A stretch of 64,000 bases of DNA from Saccharomonospora sp. NB11 (GTDB lineage Bacteria > Actinomycetota > Actinomycetes > Mycobacteriales > Pseudonocardiaceae). A program made the translations under genes and the position numbers. Positions 28,333-36,734 of the stretch are shown here, piece by piece. The DNA lies in assembly GCF_015910535.1 (NCBI RefSeq), contig NZ_JACBJG010000010.1, positions 1-64,000 on the forward strand. The letters are read 5' to 3'. Within the stretch, counting starts at the first letter, position 1. Each line of letters begins with the position of its first letter. The notes under the pieces are model-generated. The model ran no database searches. It was given only the letters and a program-made list of their open reading frames with translations, and was not told the origin of the DNA.

Positions 28333-28920
28333 ATGACGACCATCGCTCTCAAGAACGTTCTCGCCAAGGCGGGGCTCAAGACCGACCCCACCGAGTTCTT
28401 GGCGCTGGTCGAGGACGCAGCCAAGCGCCTGACCCCGCCGAGCCCGAATCCGGCCCACTATTTCTCCCCCGAACAGCGGGAAGCACTGCAGGACGTCGGG
28501 CTCGACCTCGCGCCCGCGAGCGAGGACGACCGCGATGCCCGCGCACGGGCCGTGGCCGCCCACGCGGTGCTGGCCGACTCCGCGCTCACGGTGGCGGAAG
28601 CGGCGACGCTGCTCGGGGTCGACGACAGCCGCATTCGGCACCGGCTGAAGGAAGGCCGACTCACCGGCTGGAAGGCCCAGGGTGGCTGGCGCCTGCCCGC
28701 GTGGCAGTTCACCCCGAGCGGCGTGCTGCCCGGGCTGGACGTCGTGCTGCGCGCGGTGCCCGAGGACCAGCCCGCGCTGGTCGTGGCCGCGTTCATGAGC
28801 ACTCCCCAGACCGACCTGGTGATCAACGGAAGACCGGCCACGCCGAGACAGTGGTTGTTGGCGGGCGGCGACCCCGAGTACGTGGCCGAGCTGGCCGCCG
28901 TTCTCGGCACGCCCGTCTGA
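28333..28920 (+). CDS. Antitoxin/DNA-binding partner of the RES toxin
   Basis: 195-residue protein next to a RES-domain gene. The N-terminal 75 residues are not recognised. The middle, LTVAEAATLLGVDDSRIRHR then LKEGRLTGWKAQGGWRLP (about 85-125), reads as an excisionase/MerR-type winged helix (HTH_17-like). The C-terminal ATPRQWLLAGGDPEYVAELA resembles the toxin-binding MbcA/ParS/Xre C-terminal motif. By analogy with RES-Xre modules it should neutralise the RES toxin and repress its own operon. TACTCT ends seven bases before ATG 28333, suggesting leaderless transcription. Functional assignment rests on motif and position. Confidence 0.65.
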   Translation: MTTIALKNVLAKAGLKTDPTEFLALVEDAAKRLTPPSPNPAHYFSPEQREALQDVGLDLAPASEDDRDARARAVAAHAVLADSALTVAEAATLLGVDDSRIRHRLKEGRLTGWKAQGGWRLPAWQFTPSGVLPGLDVVLRAVPEDQPALVVAAFMSTPQTDLVINGRPATPRQWLLAGGDPEYVAELAAVLGTPV

Positions 28921-28952
28921 ACCCCGGATCCCGGATCGGTTAGTCACGGTTC

Positions 28953-29606
28953 ATGGCAAGACTGCCCCGGCCGCCGTCGCGGGCCGTACTGGTCAACGCG
29001 CTCCGCCCTGCCGAAGACATCGTCGCCGTTCACCCGAACACCCGGCTCGTGCGGATCTACACCGCCCACGGGCGGCATCCGCAGCAGTGGGACACGTTCC
29101 GCTACACCGGCCCGTTGCCCCACGGTCGATTCGACCCGCAGCAGCCGCGGTACGGCGAGATGGTCACCGACCCCCACAACGGCGTGCTGTACTTCGGCCT
29201 GTCGGTGCGCACGAGCGTGGCCGAGGTCTACCAGACGACCTCCACCGTCGACCGCAAGACGCGGGGACCGCACCTCGTGGTGGTCCGCCCCGCCCGCACG
29301 TTGCGACTCCTCGACCTCTGTGGGCTCTGGCCCACGCGAGTCGGCGCGTCCCAGGAGATCTCCAGCGGGCCGAAGAAGATCACTCAGGCGTGGGCGAGGG
29401 CGATCCGCTCGGCCTACCGCGACCTCGACGGCGTCTGGTACCGCTCGTCGATGGACGCGGGAGAGCCCGCGGTGTGTCTGTGGGACCCGCCCGCGGGTGG
29501 GGCGCTGCCCTCCGTTCCCGACGTCCTGTTGCCCCTCGACCACCCGGGACTGGACGTGCCGTTGTCCCGGGTGTGCGAGGAGCTGAACTACGTGCTGGTC
29601 AACTGA
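28953..29606 (+). CDS. RES domain toxin (NAD+-consuming family)
   Basis: 217-residue protein with the RES fold, named for conserved Arg, Glu and Ser. The Arg lies in RLVRIYTAHGRHPQQW/FRYTG, the Glu in SVAEVYQTTS and the Ser in WYRSSMDAGEP. Studied RES toxins such as MbcT deplete NAD+ by phosphorolysis or hydrolysis and are relatives of ADP-ribosyltransferases. The ATG lies 33 bp after the antitoxin stop. The last eight bases overlap the 3' end of the convergent S9 peptidase gene. Toxicity is inferred from the family and not shown here. Confidence 0.82.
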   Translation: MARLPRPPSRAVLVNALRPAEDIVAVHPNTRLVRIYTAHGRHPQQWDTFRYTGPLPHGRFDPQQPRYGEMVTDPHNGVLYFGLSVRTSVAEVYQTTSTVDRKTRGPHLVVVRPARTLRLLDLCGLWPTRVGASQEISSGPKKITQAWARAIRSAYRDLDGVWYRSSMDAGEPAVCLWDPPAGGALPSVPDVLLPLDHPGLDVPLSRVCEELNYVLVN

Positions 29607-31542
29607 CCGGCAGGTGTCGCTGCCACCACTCCAGCACGGCCTCGAACCGCTGGAGCCGGTGACGCGGTCGGCCCGAGCGCGTCAGTTCGTGTCCCTCGCC
29701 GGGGAACACGAGCATCTCCGTCTCGCACCCTGACTTCTTGAGCGCGACGAACATGCGCTGAGCCTGTTCGAGAGGACAACGCCAGTCCTGCTCGGAGTGC
29801 ACGACCGCGAACGGGATCGTGATCCGGTCGGCGTAGGTGAGCGGGCTGCGTCGACGCTGCTCGTCGACATCGTCGCCCACGTAGGCGCCGGTGAAGTACC
29901 AGCCGATGTCCGAACTGCCGGTGAACGAGTCCCACGCGTTGACGGCACGTTCGCTCCAGGCGGCACGGAACCGGTGACCGTGGTGGGCGGCGAGCCATCC
30001 GGTCATGAAGCCGCCGTAGGAGCCGCCCATCACGCCGACGCGATCGGCATCCGCGTCCGGGCGCGTCGACACGGCGTCGAGCAGGGCCAGCACGTCGTCG
30101 GCATCCACCGTGCCGAGCGCGCCGACGACCGCCCGCGCGTGCGACTCGCCGTACCCGGCGGAGCCACGCGGGTTCGGGAGGACGACCAGGTACCCCGCCG
30201 AGGCGTACACCTGGGCCTCGTCGAAGAGGCTCCACTCGTACTGGGCGAACGGACCGCCGTGCACCACGAGCAGCACGGGATGGGGACCGTCGCCCTCGGG
30301 CTTCACGACCCAGCCGTGCACGGGGTAGCCGTCGGGCGCGGTGGCCGTGACCTCCTCCATCGGCCTGATCCCGGCCTCCCGCAGCGACGCGGAGAAGTCC
30401 GTGAGAACGCGAGCGGAGCCACCTTCGAGGAGCACGATCTCTCCCGTGTCCTCCGGTCCGGCTTGCACCAGGGCGATGCGGTCGCCGTCGACGGTGAACG
30501 ACCGGACGGCGGCTCGCTCTCCCGCCAGGAGCGGCAGGTCGTCCAAGGCGGCCTCGGTGGCGTCCTTGGCGACGCTGCGCAGCTCGACGGCACCGCGATG
30601 CCGAACGGCCACCAGCACGTCGTCGTCTCGGACGGCGGGCGGCCCGGCCGAGGCCTCACAGCCCACGGTCTCCGCGTCGGTGAGTCGGCGCGGGGCCGTC
30701 CGGTCGCTCAGGGAGGTCACCCAGAGTCCGGTGTTGCGCGCCACGGGGTCGAAGCCGTCGAAAGCAGTGCTGTAGAAGTACACCGCGCCGTCGGAGGTCA
30801 CGACCGGCGAGGACACGGAGCCCGCGCTCCGCACGAGCAGTTCCGGACCGTCGCCACCGTCGACCCTGACGAGGTAGAGGTCGTCGTGCAGCGACTCCTC
30901 GGCGTCCCAGTCGCGAGGCGCGACCACGACGACACCGGTGGAGTCCGGGGTCCATGCCAGGTCGCCGACGCTCACCGTGGCGTCGGTCAGCGGCGAGAGG
31001 TCGTCCGCGCCGAGGGTGTCGCCGGTCTCGGTGTCGACGACGAAGAGCCGGTACGGCCGATCACGAAGGAATCCCTCGCCGTCGAGGCGGTAGTCGAAGC
31101 GCGTGATCCGGCGCGGCGCCTCGGCCTCGGGTTTCGGCGCGTCCTTGCCGTCGGCGGCCGTGCCGTAGCGGCCCGGTTCGGGGACGCGAGCGGTGAAGGC
31201 GATGCGGCGCGAGTCCGGCGCCCACACCGGTGTCCCGGCTCCCAACGGGAGATCGGTGAGCCGGCGCGACTCGCCGCCCGCCGCGGGCATGACGTGCAGT
31301 TGTGGCGCGTCGGTACCGGTGGCGCGCAGGAAGGCCACCCACCGGCCGTCCGGGGAGATCGCAGGAGCGGTGTCCCGCTCTCCGTGGGTCCAGGGTGCGG
31401 GACCGTCGGGCCCGATCCGGACGAGAGAACTGCGGTAGACGTCGGTGTCCGTGTCGGGGCGAGCCACCGCCGTGAGCAGCAGCTCGCCCCGCATCGTCGG
31501 ACGACCGGGAACGGCCATGCGGTCGAGATCTGTGGGACGCAT
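29599..31542 (-). CDS. S9 family peptidase (prolyl oligopeptidase-like)
   Basis: Serine peptidase of 647 residues, probably cytoplasmic since no signal peptide is seen. The N-terminal beta-propeller repeats (APAISPDGRWVAFLRATG, PVWAPDSRRIAFTARVP) are followed by an alpha/beta-hydrolase domain. Its nucleophile is in GVMGGSYGGFMTGW, the aspartate is in HSEQDWRCP and the histidine in PGEGHELTRSG. This matches acylaminoacyl-peptidase/dipeptidyl-peptidase types, which degrade short peptides. ATG 31542 has TAGAGT ending seven bases upstream (31555-31550) and no ribosome site, so it may be leaderless. It overlaps the RES gene tail to tail. Confidence 0.9.
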   Translation of the reverse strand: MRPTDLDRMAVPGRPTMRGELLLTAVARPDTDTDVYRSSLVRIGPDGPAPWTHGERDTAPAISPDGRWVAFLRATGTDAPQLHVMPAAGGESRRLTDLPLGAGTPVWAPDSRRIAFTARVPEPGRYGTAADGKDAPKPEAEAPRRITRFDYRLDGEGFLRDRPYRLFVVDTETGDTLGADDLSPLTDATVSVGDLAWTPDSTGVVVVAPRDWDAEESLHDDLYLVRVDGGDGPELLVRSAGSVSSPVVTSDGAVYFYSTAFDGFDPVARNTGLWVTSLSDRTAPRRLTDAETVGCEASAGPPAVRDDDVLVAVRHRGAVELRSVAKDATEAALDDLPLLAGERAAVRSFTVDGDRIALVQAGPEDTGEIVLLEGGSARVLTDFSASLREAGIRPMEEVTATAPDGYPVHGWVVKPEGDGPHPVLLVVHGGPFAQYEWSLFDEAQVYASAGYLVVLPNPRGSAGYGESHARAVVGALGTVDADDVLALLDAVSTRPDADADRVGVMGGSYGGFMTGWLAAHHGHRFRAAWSERAVNAWDSFTGSSDIGWYFTGAYVGDDVDEQRRRSPLTYADRITIPFAVVHSEQDWRCPLEQAQRMFVALKKSGCETEMLVFPGEGHELTRSGRPRHRLQRFEAVLEWWQRHLPVS

Positions 31543-32740: not shown

Positions 32741-32910
32741 ACGCCCACCATCATCTCGACTGTGACGCAGGATGACCAGTGGTGGTCGGCAGAGTCACCG
32801 CTGCGACACACGTAAGATCGGTCACATGACCCGAGCACGGTGTGCCGCCGCCCCGCCTCCGACCGTGACCCGCCGCAAATCGCCCGGAAACGCCCAATAG
32901 TGTGGCAACC

Positions 32911-35787
32911 GTGCCCCGAACTATGAAGTTGCGCGGCAAGCGCGCGCGCCTGCTCGGACTCGCGGCCGTGGCCGCCGTCCTCGCCACGGTCGCGCTGGTG
33001 TGGGTCGACGACGACGAACGTCCCACGCACACCACCCACGAGGCCGTCATCGACGTGGCCGCCGCTCCGGGCTCCGCCGAGCGCGTCCAGTTGGACACCA
33101 CGATGTACGTGCCGGCCACCACGCCCGCACCGGCCGTGTTGCTGCCGCACGGGTTCGGCGGTGACAAGAACAGCGTGACGCGTGAGGCCGAGGAGCTGGT
33201 CGAACGCGGGTTCGTCGTGCTCACCTACTCGGCCCGAGGATTCGGCCGCAGCACGGGCGAGATCGCGCTCAACGACCCCGACTACGAGGTCGCCGACGCC
33301 TCGCAGCTCGTGGACTACCTGGCCGACCGCCCCGAGGTGCAGCTCGATCAGGACGGCGATCCGCGCGTCGGTGTCACCGGTGCCTCGTACGGGGGCGCGC
33401 TGGCGCTGCTGCTCGCGGGCACCGACGATCGCGTCGACGTCATCGCACCCGTGATGACCTACAACGATCTCGCACAGGCGCTGCTGCCCAACGCCGCGAG
33501 CGCGGAGGACGTCGACGACGACACTCCCGCGCCGGGTGCCTTCGCCGAGAACGGGGTCTTCAAGCAGGCGTGGGCCGGGACTCTGTTCGCCGCCGGGCTG
33601 GGCCCGGCTCGCCCCGGCGCTCCCGGCGCCGAGGCACTGGAGCCGGGCGACGAGCCGGAGAACAACGACACCACCGGAGCCGTCCCCGGGTCCGGTGCGA
33701 GCGTGCCCGCTCCGGGGCAGAGCCGTCCTTCGCTCGACGCCGCGGCGAACGCGTGCGGGCGGTTCACCGAGCAGGTGTGCGCCGCCTACACCGACGTGGC
33801 CACCGACGGAATCGCCGAGGACGACACCCTTGCGCTGCTGCGTCGGGTCTCGCCCGCGTCGGTCACCGACCGGATCACCGTTCCGACGCTGCTGGTGCAG
33901 GGCACGGCCGACACGCTGTTCGGGCTCGACCAGGCCGACGAGAACGCCCGCCAGATCACCGAGGCGGGCGGTGAGGTCTCCGTCGTCTGGTACACGGGAG
34001 GCCACGACGGCGGAGTGCCGGGCCCGAAACTGCGCACCACCATCGCCGACTTCCTCGACCACCACCTGACCGGCAACGGCGACGACGTCGACTCTCGATT
34101 CAGCTACGACGTGCAGGGCGCGCTGCGCACCAACGGCACGCCCTCCGTCCGCACCGTCGAGGCCGGCGCCTACCCCGGTGTGGCCGCCGAACCGACCGAC
34201 CGGCGTCGCATCGCGTTGAACGGCGTCGAGCAGGTCGCGCAGCGACCGCCCGGTGCGACCCCCTCGGCCGTCAGCGGCATTCCCGGCATCAACTCCGCGG
34301 TGGCGAACTCGTCACGGCTGTCGGGGTTGTTCACCATCGACCCGCCCGGTCAGGCGGCCACCTTCACCTCGGAACCGGTCGACTCACAGGTGCTGATCAC
34401 CGGTGCCCCCACCGTCACGCTGAACGTCGCCGCGGCGAACGACGCGAGTAGCGGCGAGGACGCCGTGCTCTTCGTCAAGCTCTACGACGTCAACCCCGAC
34501 GGCAGCCGGACGTTGCCCGGCAGCGCGGTCGCACCGGTCCGGGTCCCGTCCCTGCCCGACGACGGGTCGGCGGCGGAGGTCACGGTCACGCTGCCGGGAA
34601 TCGTGCGACCCGTCGAAGCCGGTCACAGCCTGCAGCTCGTGGTGAGCACGACCGACCAGGCCTACGCGACGCCGACCGAACCGGCGGCATACCGGATCTC
34701 GCTGGCCGGTGACTCCGCCGTGTCGGTGCCGCTCGTCCCCGGCACCACGATGACGTCCGGCTGGCCCACCAGCCAGCTTCTGGGCATCGGAGGCGTGTTG
34801 GTCGCCGTGGGTGTCGTGGCGGTCGTCGCCGCGGTGCGGCGCAGGCGGTCGCACCACGTGGACCCGGAACTCGCCGACACACCCCTGGTCATTCGCAACC
34901 TGACGAAGTCGTACCCCGGCGGGTTGACCGCCGTGAAGGACCTGTCGTTCCGGGTGGAGCGCGGTCAGGTCCTGGGCCTGCTCGGCCCCAACGGAGCGGG
35001 GAAGACCACCACGCTGCGCATGTTGATGGGCCTGATCCAGCCGACCGACGGTGAGATCACCGTCTTCGGTCGGACGATCTCGCCGGGGGCGCCCGTGCTG
35101 TCCCGCATCGGCTCCTTCGTGGAGGGCTCGGGCTTCCTGCCTCATTTGTCCGGAGTCGAGAACCTCAAGCTCTACTGGGCCGCCACCGGTCGCCCCGCCG
35201 ACCAGGCCCACTTCGACGAGGCGCTGGAGATCGCCGGTCTCGGTTCCGCCGTGCACCGTCGAGTCCGCACCTACAGCCAGGGCATGCGTCAGCGACTCGC
35301 CATCGCCCAGGCCATGCTCGGTCTGCCGGACCTGCTCGTCCTCGACGAACCCACCAACGGGCTCGACCCGCCGCAGATCCACCAGATGCGGGAGGTGCTG
35401 CGTCGCTACGCGGCCACCGGGCGCACCGTCCTCGTGTCGAGCCACCTGCTCGCCGAGGTCGAACAGACCTGCACACACGTGGTCGTCATGCATCGCGGCT
35501 CCGTCGTCGCCGCTGGGGAGGTCGGGGACATCGCCTCCGCAGGAGGGGAAGCCACCTTCCGCGTGGACGCCCCGGACACCGCAGCGAAGGTGCTGCGCGA
35601 CACCGACGGCGTGGTGGGCGCGGAGGTCGAGGACGGTGTCGTCCACGCCGACCTCGGTGACGTGCCCCGATCGGCCGCCGTGGCCGCGCTGGTGCGCGCC
35701 GGTGTGGCCGTCGAGCAGGCGGGCCCGCGTCGCCGGTTGGAGGACGCGTTCCTCCAACTGGTCGGAGAAGGGGAGCAGGAACGATGA
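32911..35787 (+). CDS. S15/CocE-like hydrolase fused to ABC transporter ATPase
   Basis: 958-residue two-part protein. TM1 (LLGLAAVAAVLATVALVWV, about 13-31) is followed by an alpha/beta hydrolase with HGFGGDK near 79, ARGFGRSTG near 107, nucleophile GASYGG near 157, aspartate in QGTADTLF near 330 and histidine in GGHDGG near 364. Next come an X-Pro dipeptidyl-peptidase-type jelly roll (about 440-610), TM2 (LLGIGGVLVAVGVVAVVAAV, about 622-641), and an ABC ATPase with GPNGAGKTTT near 692, signature YSQGMRQRL near 788, LDEPTNGLDP near 809 and SSHLLAE near 844. The topology puts the hydrolase outside and the ATPase inside. GTG 32911 has TAGTGT ending seven bases upstream; GTG 32902 is an alternative. 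It overlaps the permease gene by 4 bp (ATGA). Confidence 0.88.
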   Translation: MPRTMKLRGKRARLLGLAAVAAVLATVALVWVDDDERPTHTTHEAVIDVAAAPGSAERVQLDTTMYVPATTPAPAVLLPHGFGGDKNSVTREAEELVERGFVVLTYSARGFGRSTGEIALNDPDYEVADASQLVDYLADRPEVQLDQDGDPRVGVTGASYGGALALLLAGTDDRVDVIAPVMTYNDLAQALLPNAASAEDVDDDTPAPGAFAENGVFKQAWAGTLFAAGLGPARPGAPGAEALEPGDEPENNDTTGAVPGSGASVPAPGQSRPSLDAAANACGRFTEQVCAAYTDVATDGIAEDDTLALLRRVSPASVTDRITVPTLLVQGTADTLFGLDQADENARQITEAGGEVSVVWYTGGHDGGVPGPKLRTTIADFLDHHLTGNGDDVDSRFSYDVQGALRTNGTPSVRTVEAGAYPGVAAEPTDRRRIALNGVEQVAQRPPGATPSAVSGIPGINSAVANSSRLSGLFTIDPPGQAATFTSEPVDSQVLITGAPTVTLNVAAANDASSGEDAVLFVKLYDVNPDGSRTLPGSAVAPVRVPSLPDDGSAAEVTVTLPGIVRPVEAGHSLQLVVSTTDQAYATPTEPAAYRISLAGDSAVSVPLVPGTTMTSGWPTSQLLGIGGVLVAVGVVAVVAAVRRRRSHHVDPELADTPLVIRNLTKSYPGGLTAVKDLSFRVERGQVLGLLGPNGAGKTTTLRMLMGLIQPTDGEITVFGRTISPGAPVLSRIGSFVEGSGFLPHLSGVENLKLYWAATGRPADQAHFDEALEIAGLGSAVHRRVRTYSQGMRQRLAIAQAMLGLPDLLVLDEPTNGLDPPQIHQMREVLRRYAATGRTVLVSSHLLAEVEQTCTHVVVMHRGSVVAAGEVGDIASAGGEATFRVDAPDTAAKVLRDTDGVVGAEVEDGVVHADLGDVPRSAAVAALVRAGVAVEQAGPRRRLEDAFLQLVGEGEQER

Positions 35788-36734
35788 GCAAGGCCGACAA
35801 GCCCGAGACCCTCGCCTCCGCCGGCGTGCACACCGATCCGGCCGCGCTGGAAGAACTCAGCGCGGCCGGAGCCCCGAGCACCGAGGTCGGTCGCGATGGC
35901 GGCGTGGTCGGGTATCGGCCGGGTCGGACGCTGCGGCTCGGCGTGGAGCTCCGACGTCAGTTGCGTCGGCGCCGCACGCAACTGGTGCTGGCCCTCGTGG
36001 CGTTGTTGCCGATCATCCTGGTGATCGCGTTCGAGATCGGGGACGCCAACCCGAATCGCAGGTCCGGCGCGTTCATCGACCTGGCGACCGCCAGCGCGCC
36101 GAACTTCGTCGTGGTGGCGATGCTCGTCTCGGGCTCGTTCCTGCTGCCGATGATCGTCGCGCTGTACTTCGGTGACACGGTCGCCAGCGAGGCGTCGTGG
36201 TCGAGCATGAAATACCTGCTGGCCATTCCCGTGCCACGGCACCGGTTGCTGCGGCAGAAAGCCGTCGCCTCGGCGCTGCTGTCGGCGTTCACGCTGACGC
36301 TGCTGCCGTTGGTCGCTCTCGTGGTCGGGGTGGTGTGGTACGGCGCAGGCAGCGCGATCAGCCCGACGGGCGACTCCGTGTCGTTCGGCGCGAGCCTCGT
36401 CGCGATCACGCTGGGCACGGTCTACGTGATCATCCAACTGTCCTGGGTGGCCGCACTCGGCCTGCTGCTGAGCGTGTCCACCGACACCCCGCTGGGAGCG
36501 GTCGGCGGGACGGTGCTGGTGTCGATCCTGTCGCAGATCCTCGACCAGATCACCGCGCTCGGCGACCTCCGAGAGTTCCTGCCCACGCACTTCGCCTTCG
36601 CGTGGATGGAGCTGATCGCCACCGACGTCGACTGGACGAACATGGCGAGCGGTGTGCTCTCCGCCGTGGTGTACGCGGCGGTGTTCGGCATGCTCGCTGC
36701 GCGCCGATTCGCCACGAAGGACATTACGAGCTGA
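35784..36734 (+). CDS. ABC-2 type transporter permease
   Basis: 316-residue membrane subunit. A hydrophilic N-terminus of about 65 residues precedes six predicted TM segments, including LVLALVALLPIILVIAFEIG, FVVVAMLVSGSFLLPMIVAL and FTLTLLPLVALVVGVVW. DTVASEASWSSMKYLLAIPV then PRHRLLRQK is typical of ABC-2 permeases (NatB/YhaP-like). It should pair with the ATPase half of the preceding fusion protein, with which it shares an ATGA overlap. The exported substrate is unknown. The hydrolase half may process something the pump exports, which is inference. Confidence 0.88.
   Translation: MSKADKPETLASAGVHTDPAALEELSAAGAPSTEVGRDGGVVGYRPGRTLRLGVELRRQLRRRRTQLVLALVALLPIILVIAFEIGDANPNRRSGAFIDLATASAPNFVVVAMLVSGSFLLPMIVALYFGDTVASEASWSSMKYLLAIPVPRHRLLRQKAVASALLSAFTLTLLPLVALVVGVVWYGAGSAISPTGDSVSFGASLVAITLGTVYVIIQLSWVAALGLLLSVSTDTPLGAVGGTVLVSILSQILDQITALGDLREFLPTHFAFAWMELIATDVDWTNMASGVLSAVVYAAVFGMLAARRFATKDITS

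Follow-up and report, generated by a model that had tools for sequence, protein, structure and literature searches.

Can an enzyme that works on the cell surface and the ATPase that drives a membrane pump be parts of one protein? The question is raised by a gene at positions 32911..35787 of the forward strand in the window, by which we mean the whole 64,000-nucleotide stretch of Saccharomonospora sp. NB11 analyzed here (contig NZ_JACBJG010000010.1, positions 1 to 64,000). A first-pass annotation, made from the letters alone, had claimed that this gene encodes a single polypeptide with a first transmembrane segment (TM1), an alpha/beta hydrolase with a jelly roll, a second transmembrane segment (TM2) and a complete ATP-binding cassette (ABC) ATPase. 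The open reading frame, the Pfam matches and the hydrophobic segments all agree with that description. A single chain is near certain, and the join of an enzyme predicted at the surface to a pump motor is real and old. Our preferred reading, to which we give a probability of about one half, is that the chain and the permease encoded directly downstream form an exporter of type V (ABC-2), in which the ATPase chain includes a surface esterase or amidase that processes the cargo at its exit.

A serine hydrolase and an ABC ATPase on one chain

The features of the pair are as follows, with the conservation counts taken from the alignments described below.

32911..35787, +: fusion gene, 958 residues; TM1, CocE/NonD-type serine hydrolase with jelly roll, TM2, ABC ATPase
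32950..33006, +: TM1, residues 14-32; hydrophobic segment with K/R-rich residues ahead of it, predicted N-in
33085..34080, +: alpha/beta-hydrolase domain, residues 59-390, end approximate (Pfam and alignment)
33385..33387, +: Ser159, presumed catalytic, in GASYGG; Ser in 61/61 sequences
33754..33780, +: Cys282...Cys290 pair in the lid, presumed disulfide; invariant, 61/61
33910..33912, +: Asp334, presumed catalytic; 61/61
34003..34005, +: His365, presumed catalytic; 61/61
34207..34683, +: PepX_C jelly roll, residues 433-591 (Pfam)
34780..34836, +: TM2, residues 624-642, hydrophobic segment followed by RRRR
34885..35784, +: ABC-2/type V ATPase domain with DrrA-like C-terminal part, residues 659-958 (Pfam, NCBIfam and solved-chain matches)
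34984..35010, +: Walker A, GPNGAGKTT, residues 692-700 (motif alignment)
35272..35295, +: ABC signature, YSQGMRQR, residues 788-795 (motif alignment)
35332..35349, +: Walker B, LLVLDE, residues 808-813 (motif alignment)
35443..35445, +: H-loop His845; 62/62
35784..36734, +: ABC-2 permease gene, 316 residues, six hydrophobic peaks, Pfam matches

Four Pfam domains lie along the fusion, all above their curated cut-offs: Peptidase_S15 (residues 59-194), Abhydrolase_1 (74-351), PepX_C (433-591, at 51 bits against a cut-off of 22.5) and ABC_tran (675-816). The triad had been reported as intact, and indeed Ser159, Asp334 and His365, with the GxSYGG elbow, are unchanged in 61 of 61 sequences (the window plus 60 loci); their catalytic roles are assigned from motif and conservation rather than from a structure. 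In the alignment, an HGFG motif occupies the usual place of the oxyanion hole. In CocE/NonD hydrolases, the oxyanion hole characteristically includes the side chain of a Tyr.

The fusion passes the NCBIfam CocE/NonD model TIGR00976 (87.2 bits, cut-off 66.3), as do the homologue at locus L153 (109.3 bits) and a stand-alone hydrolase at locus L160 (81.7 bits). In contrast, the Xaa-Pro dipeptidyl-peptidase model NF003780 scores far under its cut-off (41.3 versus 642 bits). By profile, the top solved relatives are a lipase and other esterases. The lipase, 8yzo/8yzn, is the best of them (E = 7.7e-34) and aligns over both domains, with one stretch covering the nucleophile region and a second covering the Asp, the His and the jelly roll; cocaine esterase is listed among the profile matches with one stretch, in the jelly-roll region. 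Queried as a single sequence, the hydrolase half finds its best solved relatives among alpha/beta hydrolases, with MHETase and lipase 8yzo/8yzn matched over the nucleophile region. Because it passes the CocE/NonD model, fails the PepX one and has the lipase and MHETase as solved relatives, the hydrolase half is more likely an esterase, lipase or amidase than the X-Pro peptidase of the first-pass annotation, which we abandon as an assignment. Like CocE/NonD hydrolases in score, in Ser-Asp-His and in jelly roll, it is unlike them in being joined through TM2 to an ABC ATPase; the chain of lipase 8yzo/8yzn, at 505-506 residues, is too short for an ABC half.

At the other end of the chain, the Walker A Lys, the Walker B Asp-Glu, the Ser-x-Gly of the signature and the H-loop His are unchanged in 62 of 62 sequences; judged by these motifs and the triad, both ends of the protein look active. 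Among the best 60 of 171 solved chains, the ATPase resembles the type V ATPases ABCA4, 1vpl, NosF and Rv1218c. The best NCBIfam model for the chain, among the best 25 of 205 families, is the DrrA type TIGR01188, under its cut-off (178.5 versus 312.45 bits). The permease matches ABC2_membrane_2 and ABC2_membrane_4 (PF12679, 35.1 versus 27.2 bits; PF12730, 31.8 versus 27 bits), and six hydrophobic peaks can be counted in the window copy. The pair thus has the parts of the type V ABC-2 exporters (DrrAB, NosFY, Rv1217c-Rv1218c), with an ATPase matching NosF, Rv1218c and 1vpl and a permease matching the ABC2_membrane models; it departs from them in that no hydrolase fusion is named among those 60 chains and in that the DrrA model stays below its cut-off.

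The arrangement proposed earlier, with the hydrolase outside and the ATPase inside, is also what we predict. Of 61 sequences, 60 show both TM1 and TM2; the remaining one (L152) lacks TM1 at the threshold used. The stretch ahead of TM1 is net positive in all 61, and the stretch beyond it is positive in only nine. For TM2, the flank beyond is positive in 41/61 and the flank ahead in 24/61, a weaker sign of topology. Cys282 and Cys290 are present in 61/61 sequences and are the sole cysteines of the hydrolase half in 55/61, which fits one disulfide in an exported domain. In L139-L141 (family f16), TM1 looks by eye more like a cleavable signal peptide, with Ala-x-Ala ends, than like an anchor.

Integrity, linkage and spread of the fusion

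The first-pass annotation had named a sequencing error joining two genes as a possible refutation, and had suggested a search for the same fusion and permease in other genomes. Both halves share one open frame in 60 of 61 loci (L097-L157), and all 61 have an adjoining permease frame on the same strand. In a further set, 89 of 91 loci are fused; the two others are L076, which ends with its contig, and L160, the distant stand-alone hydrolase. These sets overlap in genomes, so they are not independent, and one genome may give several loci. A whole-protein query, which favors fused copies, supplied 14 of the 61 and 29 of the 91 loci; hydrolase-only queries supplied the other 47 and 62, and among these only L076 and L160 were unfused. 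L160 (L160:9719-11575, from a Streptomyces plasmid record) has 32% identity and neither ABC domain nor TM2, with an N-terminal hydrophobic stretch visible by eye. It is a candidate for the unfused ancestor type.

Among the linker codons examined, some ATG, GTG or TTG is present in 47 of 60 loci, and none in the remaining 13; the window linker contains a GTG. No internal start was found at one conserved place in the linker, the GTG at column 650 occurring in 6/60 loci. The start of the fusion itself was set at the GTG of position 32911 ("MPRT"), which matches an N-terminal MPR frequent in the family alignment; an alternative GTG in the same frame lies at 32902.

Lengths along the chain differ sharply in how far they vary (n = 60). 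The linker from Arg645 to Lys666 spans 19-24 residues, and the distance from Asp582 in the jelly roll to Lys698 in Walker A is 114-124, nearly constant by comparison with the lid between Lys218 and Cys282, which ranges from 14 to 113. Such steadiness in the sequences suggests a fixed link; for a loose tether, wider variation in length would be anticipated. Moreover, the pairwise distances of hydrolase, ATPase and permease are correlated (r = 0.92-0.95, n = 60; 0/999 permutations as high), as would be expected of one inherited unit.

The 4-base-pair (bp) overlap reported between the two genes is the ATGA at 35784-35787, in which the fusion stop meets the permease start. The same 4-bp overlap occurs in 47 of 61 loci, a count biased toward short distances, as the permease start was picked as the codon nearest the stop. 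A triple fusion that takes in the permease was considered for the 1247-1538-residue frames of f16 genomes and rejected: in the three loci covered by this check (L139-L141), the added residues are upstream, and the permease is encoded in a different frame.

The fusion is a conserved family, neither an error nor a local oddity, and is near-universal in the taxonomic family of its host. A search with the hydrolase half finds matches at E<=1e-25 in 146 of the 150 genomes sampled from that family, the window's genome included; three of the other four give weak matches only (E 6e-9 to 1e-11), and one has no match at E<=1e-8. The "unusual machine" of the first-pass annotation is therefore unusual as a machine, yet almost universal where its host belongs. 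Across the order, a whole-protein query matches 143 of 200 genomes at E<=1e-100 (29 of the 143 from the window's own family); this is no count of proven fusions, as some of the listed matches span the ATPase side alone. Across the phylum, within which all genome searches were made, the hydrolase-half query matches 22 of 396 genomes at E<=1e-40, each listed match lying in a frame of at least 881 residues. By name, the hosts include Amycolatopsis, Prauserella, Actinokineospora, Actinophytocola, Saccharopolyspora, Micromonospora, Geodermatophilaceae bins, Tsukamurella and Nonomuraea, with eleven or more named genera retaining the fusion. This two-faced machine has been conserved over deep divergence in many actinobacteria, including antibiotic producers.

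In its own genome, the window copy alone spans both halves among 85 matches at E<=0.001. Of the other 84, 83 lie at residue 619 or beyond, on the ATPase side, and one is weak (residues 481-610, E = 4.4e-4).

In Tsukamurella tyrosinosolvens, fusion and permease lie on a 386-kilobase (kb) plasmid (L158:9911-13170). This version has 791 residues and matches the ATPase half up to position 223 of 303, so that its ATPase C-terminus seems shortened. The public record labels the fusion "alpha/beta fold hydrolase" and its partner "ABC transporter permease"; in this one annotated record, the current labels hide the connection.

Proposed export with surface processing, and its rivals

How might such a pair work? 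We infer its assembly, substrate, catalysis, outward direction and cutting after transport from the parts described above. The unit would consist of two fusion chains and two permeases. A compound would leave through the permease at the expense of ATP hydrolyzed inside, and the outer hydrolase would cleave off an ester or amide group as the compound exits; the cut could activate, detoxify or trap the exported compound. That an exported molecule loses a leader or pro-group in this way, as first suggested, is plausible. If this export reading is true, export is tied to surface processing on the ATPase chain itself, and the pair offers a defined, testable system for the coupling of an ABC motor to an outside enzyme; it might also open a route to a product that these bacteria export.

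A known design close to this one is that of the peptidase-containing ABC transporters (PCAT/AMS), in which a cargo-processing hydrolase and an ABC motor share one polypeptide (PMC10885120). To that extent the two systems are alike; they differ in that the enzyme here is a serine hydrolase predicted to lie outside. PCAT/AMS transporters carry an N-terminal C39 protease domain, and none of the 16 Pfam matches at E<=0.1 is to a C39 family. Each half is already known, and the combination in one chain is what seems new: no fusion with the hydrolase predicted outside and the motor inside is described among the listed titles and abstract openings of open-licence papers. Tentatively, and with rather less confidence than in export itself, we suggest that the protein could represent a separate class of ABC machine, one whose inner ATP turnover and outer serine hydrolase are mechanically linked through one transmembrane helix of the chain, so that surface hydrolysis and transport would each gate the other. 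If so, it would be the outer-face counterpart of the peptidase-containing transporters.

Several observations weigh against export with processing. The ATPase, judged by its sequence, is akin to many type V ATPases and so names neither cargo nor direction. The permease is almost without a solved relative by sequence (NosY weak, at E = 0.17). Shared ancestry alone gives the same distance correlation. In one genome (L138:3970-6989) a frame break separates TM2 from the ATPase, whether through a fault of assembly or because the gene is naturally split. Finally, no biosynthetic neighbor, regulator or substrate is conserved with the pair in the flanks searched, which were about 8 kb for L097-L137 (some shorter) and about 4 kb for L138-L157, so that shared genes lying farther out may escape.

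Among the rivals, the one that comes closest is a switch powered by ATP: ATPase and permease would be a motor that turns the surface hydrolase on and off, with control running outside-in or inside-out and nothing pumped. We consider it unlikely. A mechanical link would need near-constant spacing between the jelly roll and Walker A, across TM2, as is seen here, and the pair is conserved with no cargo gene found beside it in those flanks. A precedent is FtsEX, an ABC system with a role at the cell surface, where it switches cell-wall hydrolases. Those hydrolases are separate proteins, and the FtsEX permease is of a different type. FtsEX is reported to control RipC (PMC10694151). Against a switch, the permease of our pair looks like an ordinary ABC-2 transporter without a large outer domain, and no peptidoglycan-hydrolase model in the Pfam and NCBIfam scans matched the hydrolase.

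Somewhat less likely again is two-step detoxification, with the pump expelling foreign or self-made toxic esters or amides and the surface hydrolase destroying them, blocking their return. The variable lid fits varied substrates, and the drug-resistance type DrrA, though under its cut-off, heads the 25 best NCBIfam families. However, one full copy in its own genome and near-universality in the taxonomic family suggest housekeeping more than a patchy resistance gene, and in the flanks searched no resistance gene or regulator is conserved beside the pair. A role in anti-phage defense was also considered and set aside: among PADLOC models, the fusion was matched by its ATPase half alone and the permease matched none.

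It is improbable that the fusion is an anchor only, merely placing at the membrane a hydrolase that works independently of the transporter. The stand-alone relative L160 indicates that the hydrolase fold needs no ATPase; retention of the fusion in so many genera, of the permease in every one of the 61 loci and of a near-fixed linker length all speak against it. An artefact, whether a sequencing error joining two genes or separately translated halves, we reject as very improbable indeed: it could draw on the two frames of L138, the GTG of the window linker and the possible starts elsewhere, against which stand the single frame of nearly every locus in both sets and the lack of an internal start at any one conserved place.

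Genes around the pair

Around the pair in the window lie genes for TerC, an S9 peptidase, a RES-domain protein and uvrB. Counted by name, TerC occurs in 37/61 loci, the S9 peptidase in 27/61 and RES in 31/61, all within the window's taxonomic family; uvrB occurs in 18/61 loci and is not confined to that family, as it also lies by L151 and L138, which belong to two others. Apart from uvrB, no gene was found in common with the pair across families in the flanks searched, bar pairwise matches among a few loci, such as a 430-residue PALP enzyme and an EamA transporter. The immediate neighbors elsewhere vary; ten hand-picked proteins gave their identities, among them a von Willebrand-domain protein, an amino-acid permease, glycosyl hydrolase 65, a PurK-like protein, and TetR and PadR regulators. 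The comparison of neighborhoods suggested at the outset thus brought out some genes shared within the window's family; the neighbors do not name a function.

Two observations concern the window's own neighborhood. Close to the fusion, at 29599-31542 (-), is a gene of the S9 prolyl-oligopeptidase family (PF00326), the one whose homologues were counted above. At 28333-29606, a 195-residue gene for which Pfam gives no match at E<=1e-5 precedes the RES-domain gene (PF08808). The two resemble what we take to be a RES/Xre toxin-antitoxin pair, a pairing we assume, as RES alone was matched; homologues of the 195-residue gene lie near the fusion in 30/61 loci, likewise in the window's taxonomic family by name.

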